DNA from: a virus
Virus record (IMG/VR): IMGVR_UViG_3300034104_005469
Coordinates: 1-28,377 of that record
Length of the DNA: 28,377 nucleotides
Strand: one strand, 5' to 3'
Made by a program: the position numbers and the translations under genes. Positions 10,160 through 17,157 of this stretch are shown piece by piece (within the stretch, counting starts at the first letter, position 1; each line of letters opens with the position of its first letter). The notes under the pieces are model-generated. The model ran no database searches. It worked only from the letters and a program-made list of their open reading frames with translations, and had not been told where the DNA came from.

Positions 10160-10483
10160 ATGGCTGACAAAACTGTGAACTACACCCCTGAGATGACTCA
10201 GAAGATGGTTGCGGATTATACCGCAGGCGTTAGCGTTGAGAAGATTGCCGAGGAGTTGGGCAAGACTGTGCGTAGCGTTGTTGCCAAACTCTCGCGTGAG
10301 AAGGTTTACAAGGCTAAGGAATACAAGACCAAGACGGGCGAGGTTCCCGTGAAGAAGGATGCTCACGCTGATTTCATTGGCATGGCCCTTGGCTTGACTG
10401 AGGCGGATGCTGATTCGCTGACCAAGGCTAACAAAACTGCACTCGCTAAGATTGCGGAATTTATCAAGGCTGAGAAGGCCTGA
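10160..10483 (+). CDS. small helix-turn-helix phage protein, paralogue A
   Basis: A 107-residue basic protein. The N-terminal half holds a helix-turn-helix: GVSVEKIAEELGKTVRSVVAKLSRE at about 29-53, with the recognition helix TVRSVVAKL. It is followed by the shared motif VYKAKEYKTKTGEVPVKK and a C-terminal helical part (DSLTKANKTALAKIAEFI) that may dimerise. Similar small HTH proteins are common as uncharacterised genes in marine and T4-like phages. Four related copies lie in this window (this one, 14497, 15407, and 17157 on the minus strand). AGGAG precedes the ATG by seven bases. DNA binding is inferred; targets are unknown. Confidence 0.8.
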   Translation: MADKTVNYTPEMTQKMVADYTAGVSVEKIAEELGKTVRSVVAKLSREKVYKAKEYKTKTGEVPVKKDAHADFIGMALGLTEADADSLTKANKTALAKIAEFIKAEKA

Positions 10484-14480: not shown

Positions 14481-14496
14481 TTTGAAAGGATATATT

Positions 14497-14823
14497 ATGG
14501 CGACCAAACTGGTGAATTATACTCCCGAGCAAACCCTGCAAATGATTCAGGATTATCAGTCGGGTATTACTGTAGAAAAGATTGCCGAGAATATGGGCAA
14601 AACTGTTCGTTCGGTGGTTGCAAAACTGTCGCGCGAAAAGGTATATAAGGCAAAAGAATATGTTTCCAAAACTGGCGAAAAGCCGGTTAAAAAGGATGTT
14701 CACGCCGAAATGATCGGCCGTATTTTGAATATGCCTGAAAATGATGTAGATTCACTTACCAAAGCAAATAAATCTGCACTTAAAAAGATTTTCGAGGCTT
14801 TGGCAAATTCAAAACCCATTTAA
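14497..14823 (+). CDS. small helix-turn-helix phage protein, paralogue B
   Basis: A 108-residue protein closely related to paralogue A: VNYTPEQTLQMIQDYQSG, helix-turn-helix ITVEKIAENMGKTVRSVV, then AKLSREKVYKAKEY, which is nearly identical in A, and a C-terminal DSLTKANKSALKKIFEAL. The ATG at 14497 has AAAGGA six bases upstream; the TTG start giving five extra residues lies inside that site. Codons are AT-rich compared with copy A, so the duplication is not recent although the protein is conserved. It ends in a strong terminator. Confidence 0.8.
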   Translation: MATKLVNYTPEQTLQMIQDYQSGITVEKIAENMGKTVRSVVAKLSREKVYKAKEYVSKTGEKPVKKDVHAEMIGRILNMPENDVDSLTKANKSALKKIFEALANSKPI

Positions 14824-15365: not shown

Positions 15366-15406
15366 AATAATATCTTTCAATGGCTGAGAAACCTAGAGGA
15401 CATATC

Positions 15407-15712
15407 ATGACCGAAAAAGTGCAAAACTACACCCCTGAGCAAACCAAGCTGGTTGTTGAGGGTTACCAAGCAGGGCAAACTGTGGAAGCCCTGGCCGAGT
15501 TGGTTGGCAAGACCACTCGCAGTGTTGTGGCCAAGTTGTCACGCGAAGGCGTGTACCAGGCCAAGGTTAGGGTCAAGAACCCTAACCGCGTCAAGAAGGC
15601 TGAGCTGGTGGAAACCCTGGCTACGCGTTGCCAAGTTCCGGTGGAAGTGTTTGAGTCGCTGGAAAAGGCAACTCACGAAGCCCTGGAGCTGCTGGTGGCA
15701 AATCTGCGGTGA
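15407..15712 (+). CDS. small helix-turn-helix phage protein, paralogue C
   Basis: A 101-residue protein: VQNYTPEQTKLVVEGYQAG, helix-turn-helix QTVEALAELVGKTTRSVVAKL, then SREGVYQAKVRVKNPNRVKKAELVETLA and a C-terminal helix FESLEKATHEALELLVANL. The ATG at 15407 follows AGAGGA by six bases; an ATG nine codons earlier lacks a site. GC content is higher than in copy B. The KNPNRVKK stretch is encoded by a perfect inverted repeat (GGTTAGGGT/ACCCTAACC, about 15564-15586). It is followed at once by the promoter of the giant RNA, whose control by this protein would be a natural hypothesis. Confidence 0.8.
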   Translation: MTEKVQNYTPEQTKLVVEGYQAGQTVEALAELVGKTTRSVVAKLSREGVYQAKVRVKNPNRVKKAELVETLATRCQVPVEVFESLEKATHEALELLVANLR

Positions 15713-15718
15713 CAAACC

Positions 15719-15766
15719 GGGGACACAAAATATTGACTTGATTTGTGTCCCCAAACCGTATATAAT
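15719..15766 (+). promoter_or_regulatory. promoter of the giant RNA with 11-bp inverted repeat
   Basis: TTGATT (15738-15743), 17-bp spacer, TATAAT (15761-15766). GGGGACACAAA (15719-15729) and TTTGTGTCCCC (15742-15752) form a perfect 11-bp inverted repeat whose right arm overlaps the end of the -35 and the spacer. It starts seven bases after the stop of paralogue C. It can act as an operator or as the 3' hairpin of the preceding mRNA. Confidence 0.75.
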
Positions 15767-15774
15767 AATATCTT

Positions 15775-16661
15775 AGACAGTTGGAAAGGGCCAAGGAGTA
15801 CAACGCAAGTTGTTGCCCGACCCACACAGACCCACTCATCCGCAAATCAGCGACTTAGTCGACAAGCCTGTAGTGCAACTGGTCTGGTGAACAACTGTTA
15901 AAATTTCGACTTGAAGTTACTCCTTGATTCAAGTTATAATATATTTATATTATTAAGGGTGTCAGCGGTCACTAAGCTAAACATAGTGATACGACTTAAT
16001 TGTGGAAAAGCTACTCACCGAGCCACAGCCCTAACCGAGCACGGGTAAACAAGGCCAGGCGAATGTGCTTGATAAGTTTTTGATTGGTGTTGAACAGCAC
16101 GCCTATACACCAGCCCAACTAACCCTCTGATGAGCACATGCAAGTTGTGCGAAACCTTAAGGAGCGCGGTGCAAGCTTGCGGCTATTCGCCCGCTTGCAA
16201 CACCTTAGGGTCAGGAAGTCCAGTTTTTAACTGGTCTACTGCTGTCGCGGTTTTGGCAGTGTAAAAATAGAACCGTGCGGTATATCCTTGGTATGGTACC
16301 GATAGATACACCTTGGCAGTGCATTCTGACTAACCCACAAAGAAGTGGCTAAAATACAGCTATCATCTAACATAAGACCCCGCCAGTGGCGGGAAATGCA
16401 GGTTTGGAGTCCTGCTAGCGAACGGGCACAAGGATTGGGAATCAAGTGCCTACAACCTAATGCCAGTCACACGCACTGACAACGTGTGTGGTTGTGTCTC
16501 CTGTTGAGCGCATTGGGGGCTAGTTGGAGGGATAAGTCGCCGAGGTCAAGGCGCACACAATCCACTAGCACGTTAAGTCCCCGAATAGGGGCAACCTAGG
16601 TAAAAACTGCGTAGTTCAAAAGCCCTGTACAAGGTATCGCCCTTGCAGGGCTTTTGTTTTT
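15775..16661 (+). ncRNA. giant structured non-coding RNA (GOLLD/ROOL-like candidate)
   Basis: About 890 nt between a good promoter and an intrinsic terminator with no plausible protein on either strand. Paired elements include: a GNRA hairpin (15800-15813, loop GCAA); 15909-15915 with 15928-15934, whose loop TACTCCTT pairs with AAGGAGTA at 15793-15800 (pseudoknot); TCACTA/TAGTGA near 15969-15990; 16134-16138/16146-16150; CCTTAAGG 16155-16162 with 16203-16210 enclosing a GCAAGC/GCTTGC arm; CCCGCC/GGCGGG 16379-16393; 16399-16416; GGCAC+GATT 16425-16450; and a 3' pseudoknot of 16490-16497:16555-16562 crossed by 16519-16524:16564-16569. Length, complexity and phage location recall GOLLD (about 800 nt) and ROOL, which are ornate RNAs of unknown function. 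Family membership is not proven. Confidence 0.8.
16618..16661 (+). terminator. intrinsic terminator of the giant RNA
   Basis: AAAAGCCCTG (16618-16627) pairs with CAGGGCTTTT (16646-16655); the loop holds a further CAAGG/CCTTG stem. TTTTGTTTTT follows. It has a U-run only on the plus strand, which fixes the direction of the RNA. Confidence 0.88.
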
Positions 16662-16677: not shown

Positions 16678-16706
16678 ATTATACAGTGCTGAATCAATTT
16701 TGTCAA
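16678..16706 (-). promoter_or_regulatory. leftward promoter copy 8, antisense to the giant RNA
   Basis: Minus strand TTGACA (16706-16701), 17-bp spacer, TATAAT (16683-16678), followed by TGGCGC as in the cassette copies. The start, near 16671, lies ten bases beyond the giant RNA terminator and transcription would run antisense through it. A terminator at 16769-16805 insulates it from the genes upstream. Confidence 0.75.
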
Positions 16707-16842: not shown

Positions 16843-17157
16843 TTAGGGTCCGGTTTCCCGCAGCTTCTGGATTAGGAGCTCCAAAACACGTTTGTTGACC
16901 TTTTCTAGCGATTCTAGGTGGTCACTGGGGACTTCAAGCAGCTGTGCAAGCGTGTCGATGTGCTCGGACTTTTTCACGGGCGGTTGACCCAGCTTGTTTA
17001 AGTAGGTTTTCTTTTGGTAGCAGCCTAGGCTGGAGAGCTTGGCGATTACGCTACGCTCCGGCACCTGCAGCCGTTCAGCTAGCATTTTGACGGTCACTCC
17101 CGACCTATAGTCGCTGACCAATTGATCTGTAATTTCCTTTGTATATTTCATAGCCAT
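16843..17157 (-). CDS. small helix-turn-helix phage protein, paralogue D
   Basis: A 104-residue, more distant member of the paralogue family: MKYTKEITDQLVSDYRSG, helix-turn-helix VTVKMLAERLQVPERSVIAKL, then SSLGCYQKKTYLNKLGQPPVKK and a C-terminal helix LESLEKVNKRVLELLIQKL. It is the only copy on the minus strand. The ATG at 17151 overlaps the stop of the upstream gene as ATGA and may be the true start; the ATG at 17157 adds two residues. It is cotranscribed with the unknown 255-residue protein behind a structured leader. Confidence 0.78.
   Translation of the reverse strand: MAMKYTKEITDQLVSDYRSGVTVKMLAERLQVPERSVIAKLSSLGCYQKKTYLNKLGQPPVKKSEHIDTLAQLLEVPSDHLESLEKVNKRVLELLIQKLRETGP

Follow-up and report, generated by a model that had tools for sequence, protein, structure and literature searches.

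A gene-free locus between paralogous HTH genes

What does a phage keep in 887 nucleotides (positions 15775-16661) that hold no plausible gene on the + strand? An earlier note on this DNA, which had rightly called the region gene-free, proposed a giant ornate RNA that was either GOLLD-like or of a new class. The window analysed here comprises all 28,377 bases of an IMG/VR viral record, which encodes terminase, portal and head genes. Its terminase is ~50% identical to those of T5-like Vibrio phages of ~115 kb; PG07, a T5-like Vibrio phage, is placed by classification in the Demerecviridae. The locus lies in a 7-kb stretch with four paralogous small D5-like HTH proteins, at 10160-10483, 14482-14823, 15380-15712 (+) and 16843-17157 (-). 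The genes of the last two flank the locus, and both resemble PHROG 1725, one of them also the D5-like PHROG 323. As a single sequence, the 887-nt region folds better than 20 of 20 dinucleotide shuffles, albeit modestly (z = -2.07), and the case must therefore rest on homologues. No Rfam family matches within the region. Judged on these, the region is a real structured RNA locus, neither a gene nor a product of chance.

Homologues in one phage clade

Neighbouring proteins led to seven loci of the same layout as the window, and blastn revealed conserved islands inside an otherwise gene-free ~0.9-1.4 kb in each. The position between paralogous HTH genes is kept in the first eight homologues. From the 8-way alignment emerged the motif TTAATTGTGG-N-GAGCCACAG, and a scan of viral contigs for it returned 71 stretches, including one chance match (L035), which was dropped. 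The ~70 viral contigs with homologues were reduced to 47 representatives at 90% identity.

The same terminase occurs in all 15 carrier contigs tested (62-81% identity), which makes them one phage clade; relatives of the terminase number several hundred. A covariance model of one domain of the RNA (the A domain, model R1) matches once in each of 16 of 16 carrier contigs, apart from one with copies at both ends; E-values of this model and of the hammerhead model R2 are rough, and members used in building them match by construction. Among 21 terminase-centred loci, at least nine carry the hammerhead described below and at least seven the A domain, while most others end short or were left out of the closer look. 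The window and three different homologues gave only short chance matches by blastn against 50,697 cultured-phage genomes, the A-domain model found no match in two whole cultured T5-like Vibrio phages, and the motif, when looked for in 84,980 genomes of bacteria and archaea, gave 10 matches, all by chance and mostly within coding sequence. The carriers form one T5-like phage clade known only from environmental DNA, and the presence of the RNA in all tested carriers of this clade argues that it matters to infection.

Members of the family measure 600-1500 nt and contain more than a dozen helices. Larger relatives carry an extra module between the A and B elements, a tRNA, and a 3' domain of up to ~870 nt. 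A short version of ~400-500 nt, in which S and A are contiguous and the 3' part is different, was observed in L029, L059, L069 and L076; it has neither the second promoter nor the hammerhead. In L021, L043 and L033 other large modules, one of them closed by AGCUAUC...GAUAGCU, replace the extra helix that usually stands between A and B; domain swapping thus seems to occur in this RNA.

Covarying modules

The following modules were delineated in the window copy.

15776..15899 (+), S domain of ~125 nt, closed by GACAGUUG/CAACUGUU, with GGGC/GCCC and an inner hairpin
15957..16031 (+), A domain, a three-way junction with GGGU/GCCC, GUC(A)G/CGAC plus a variable hairpin, and UGUGG/CCACA
16043..16116 (+), B module, two hairpins within a GGG/CCC closing helix, with covariation in 34 sequences
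16213..16661 (+), 3' domain, the predicted 3' cleavage product, which contains the C module
16334..16420 (+), C module, a hairpin with an AAAGAA loop, the invariant AAAUACAGCUAUCNUCUAA and two further hairpins

Covariation scores of S, A, B, the hammerhead and C lie above all 500 shuffles and every slid control. In the S domain the score is 0.216 against 0.134 for shuffled alignments, with 34 cells changed on both sides in a 24-sequence alignment. The A domain is 98.3% paired across 37 distinct sequences, and its GUC/GAC pairing in the window and L005 is replaced by GAC/GUC in other members. Module B scores 0.618 (shuffled 0.207, slid at most 0.219) with 101 cells changed on both sides, and in module C, aligned in 12 sequences, 100% of cells are paired and the score is 0.611 against 0.174. 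Hairpin arms vary freely and loops stay fixed. Many of the helices checked in the homologues, a check the earlier note had proposed, show compensatory changes far above shuffled and slid controls.

Two crossing helices of that note fared less well. The first, 15793-15800:15918-15925, pairs over 9 bp in the window and, with different letters, over 8 bp in the nearest homologue, L005, and is absent from the other ~30 checked; its 3' arm falls inside the spacer of the second promoter, and it is regarded as lineage-specific or due to chance. At 16490-16497:16555-16562 and 16519-16524:16564-16569, where the helices of the second can be drawn in the window, no homologue aligns, and the 3' half of the window copy has no alignable relative outside module C.

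Module C also occurs alone in L113 (~1171-1260), directly before a terminator and ~10 kb from an A domain and a weak hammerhead match on the same contig, which suggests that it is a separable RNA module. Some further loci from the module-C scan, such as L094, L096 and L100, were rejected as chance matches in coding sequence.

Promoters, terminator and an operator-like repeat

Signals for transcription bracket the modules.

15719..15752 (no strand assigned), operator-like inverted repeat around the -35 of promoter 1, GGGGACAC...GTGTCCCC, from direct reading
15738..15766 (+), promoter 1, TTGATT-17-TATAAT, with ACTTGAT..TATAAT conserved in the 8-way alignment
15911..15940 (+), promoter 2, TTGAAG-18-TATAAT, with the ACTTGA and TATAAT columns invariant in the 8-way alignment
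~16618..16661 (+), intrinsic terminator, AAAAGCCCTGTACAAGG..CCTTGCAGGGCTTTTGTTTTT, a hairpin with a T-run, conserved in relatives

Promoter 1 lies upstream of the S domain and promoter 2 upstream of the A domain; the latter is missing from a few relatives whose S and A adjoin. The earlier reading had identified promoter 1 and the terminator with its U-run, and both are borne out; it had missed promoter 2, the hammerhead (16118-16221) and the tRNAs embedded in relatives. The arms of the inverted repeat change together in homologues (TTTAGGGTCA/TGACCC..., and GGGGAGAAG/CTTCTCCCC in L029). The repeat looks like the operator of a fast-evolving repressor, possibly a flanking HTH protein.

Just 3' of the terminator, a perfect TTGACA-17-TATAAT promoter on the other strand (16678-16706, -) points leftwards, so that transcription from it would enter the 3' end of the RNA in antisense. 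The block that contains this promoter is conserved in the first eight homologues.

A hammerhead ribozyme inside the RNA

Between modules B and C, reading of the alignment revealed the order CUGANGA-stem II-GAAA-stem III-GUC-stem I, that is, a complete hammerhead.

16118..16221 (+), complete hammerhead between modules B and C, with predicted cleavage between C16212 and A16213
16124-16126/16213-16215 (+), stem I
16127-16133 (+), core CUGAUGA
16134-16138/16146-16150 (+), stem II
16151-16154 (+), GAAA
16154-16211 (+), stem III

The full descriptor matches once in the window (16127-16212) and never in 200 shuffled windows. Its core (CUGANGA, GAAA, A-U, GUC) is invariant in 34 full-length aligned copies and in copies with enlarged stems, while all three stems change in compensation across the family: stem I occurs as CCU/AGG, CCA/UGG or CUU/AAG, and stem II as GCACA, GCUGA, GCCUA, UGGUC and others with partners changing to match. 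Covariation amounts to 0.341 against 0.138 for shuffled alignments, with 12 of 18 pairs changed on both sides. Model R2 scores the window copy at 79.7 bits and finds the hammerhead in all 47 representatives except four that do not have it and one cut by a contig end. L029, L059, L069 and L039 keep the A domain and have no hammerhead; given four such representatives, self-cleavage is not essential to every member. L012, L014 and L023 had been considered as a further hammerhead-less group, which was ruled out by a hammerhead ~1 kb further downstream.

By every structural feature testable in sequence, the element is a hammerhead of type I topology. With the type I hammerheads of the closest Rfam model (Hammerhead_3, RF00008) it shares CUGANGA, GAAA, the A15.1-U16.1 pair, the GUC triplet and three helices. 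The phage copies differ in a long stem III (~50-68 nt), a stem I often of only 3-5 bp, a stem II that sometimes reaches ~90 nt, and in being embedded in a giant structured RNA. Rfam hammerhead models reach their gathering score, a value set for curation that does not define the ribozyme biochemically, in no member tested; Hammerhead_3 gives 21.8 bits (E = 0.012, cut-off 48.5) on the L034 copy, and the window copy is unmatched. The match is probably missed on account of the long stem III and the short stem I. In the window, stem I reaches an internal loop after only 3 bp, so that tertiary contacts would be required for fast cleavage.

A probable self-cleaving RNA in two parts

With a hammerhead in its middle, this RNA probably cuts itself in two. 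The reading favoured here, as reasonably likely on the comparative evidence, is that the locus encodes a large, modular phage RNA of a new class, which would cleave itself into a 5' RNA and a 3' RNA. Host-type promoters P1 and P2 would drive transcription to the terminator at ~16661, and along the transcript S, A, B, the hammerhead, C and the variable 3' helices would each fold independently, one module after another; other members add the large extra helix module and a tRNA-Glu(UUC). Cleavage after C16212, during or after transcription, would leave two RNAs. The 5' RNA would comprise S, A, B and the ribozyme, with the tRNA in members that have one, and would end in a 2',3'-cyclic phosphate; the 3' RNA would run from the C module to the terminator and begin with a 5'-OH. 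We infer that cleavage takes place in the cell and that the products are the functional species. Cleavage would likely serve maturation, with two structured RNAs made in fixed proportion from a single transcript and product ends that would resist RNase E and 3' exonucleases. In L022, L034 and L067 a promoter lies directly upstream of the hammerhead; there the ribozyme would shorten the 3' RNA at its 5' end, in keeping with maturation. In the infected cell, the products may then serve as stable RNAs of a structural or scaffold type, a role that has been proposed for GOLLD and ROOL, and by analogy with these perhaps form particles (PMC12286853).

An optional tRNA-Glu

An intact tRNA-Glu(UUC) with encoded CCA, and never another isoacceptor, lies inside the RNA in 17 of the 47 representatives. 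It usually stands just upstream of the hammerhead, with 5-9 nt from CCA to CUGANGA in seven. The carriers hold 14 to 27 tRNA genes in all, often with a tmRNA, and besides the embedded tRNA-Glu there is often another; in G002 no other was found. All this could indicate that the RNA mainly carries or protects the tRNA, for example against tRNA-cleaving host defences, with modules and hammerhead serving to release or tether it and tRNA-less copies being decayed or specialised. However, the other 30 representatives, the window among them, retain the other modules without a tRNA, the tRNA occurs at more than one position (before module B in L004), and the cut falls ~85 nt or more downstream of the tRNA rather than at its end. 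Such a carrier role is therefore unlikely, if the best placed of the alternatives. Since the embedded copy can be a second tRNA-Glu, the tRNA is an optional passenger or a specialised part and not the core of the RNA.

Relation to other hammerheads and giant RNAs

Prophage hammerheads, which lie in phage genomes and share the standard core, are found next to protein genes, frequently with several at one locus, and have been suggested to process polycistronic transcripts (PMC3088659). The present hammerhead could likewise process an mRNA, the remainder being untranslated spacer, but it is single and inside a noncoding RNA. Here the conserved terminator ends the transcript, no + strand gene follows the hammerhead, the genes next after the terminator are on the opposite strand, and the flanking modules co-vary as RNA. 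These points make mRNA processing improbable.

Alternatively, the RNA could be a highly diverged GOLLD or ROOL. GOLLD (RF02032) is an ornate RNA of phages and prophages, at least ~800 nt long, with tRNA islands nearby and a variable linker that sometimes holds tRNAs (PMC12286853), and ROOL (RF03087), phage-linked and ornate, measures ~600 nt and also lies near tRNA islands; size, origin, fold and tRNAs inside or nearby are thus similar. Yet the Rfam models to which the earlier note had pointed do not match: GOLLD (whose model represents the conserved 3' region), ROOL, OLE and HEARO were absent from the window both at gathering scores and in a whole-Rfam cmscan at E<=10, and from 14 homologous loci at E<=1, and GOLLD and ROOL were not found in 18 carrier contigs, in a search that gave no positive-control signal. 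Module order and conserved motifs are unlike the descriptions found, neither RNA has a described hammerhead, and in contrast to GOLLD the family has different modules and is limited to one T5-like clade. ROOL is abundant and forms RNA-only cages. Descent from either is very improbable. Of the two options in the earlier note, the new class stands, as supported by covariation in five elements, the HTH-gene position in the first eight homologues and no conserved reading frame noticed across homologues; the likeness to GOLLD holds by analogy only.

Equally improbable is multi-part regulatory DNA, with operators, promoters and repeats mimicking RNA structure. Inverted repeats of the GACCCTAAAC type do recur at the promoters and within the 3' domain, and D5-like HTH proteins flank the locus, but features that belong to RNA and to one strand only are present in the core of the hammerhead, the bulges, the sequences of the loops and the multi-branched junctions, and loops stay fixed beside freely varying arms. 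Hammerheads are typical of circular RNA replicons, but a viroid- or retrozyme-like circular or mobile RNA is extremely improbable here: the locus belongs to a DNA phage and has its own promoter and terminator, and the hammerhead lies on one strand and in at most one copy per genome (except on the contig with both ends), which also rules out a two-ribozyme circular-RNA system.

Significance

To our knowledge, the structures of GOLLD and ROOL are known and their function is not, and little is known of what hammerheads do in bacteria and phages. The present family joins a giant phage RNA and a hammerhead; its predicted self-cleavage site is invariant and its tRNA can be exchanged. It is regarded as a new class of giant phage RNAs that contain a ribozyme; in open-licence papers, no giant RNA with a hammerhead was found. 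More tentatively, it may be the first such giant ornate phage RNA, cleaving itself into two co-folded RNAs that would form an RNA-only particle carrying or shielding tRNA-Glu in infection. If so, the RNA would be a core trait of a large clade of uncultured T5-like phages. Cleavage is simple to assay, and cleavage-dead mutants offer a handle on what such RNAs do.

A last observation concerns the host. Phage tmRNA genes lie beside the arrays of ~14-27 tRNAs in L034 (7630-8007), L039 (1-60) and contigs G001, G007 and G010. That of L034 scores 137 bits against the betaproteobacterial tmRNA model, a match that suggests a betaproteobacterial host.
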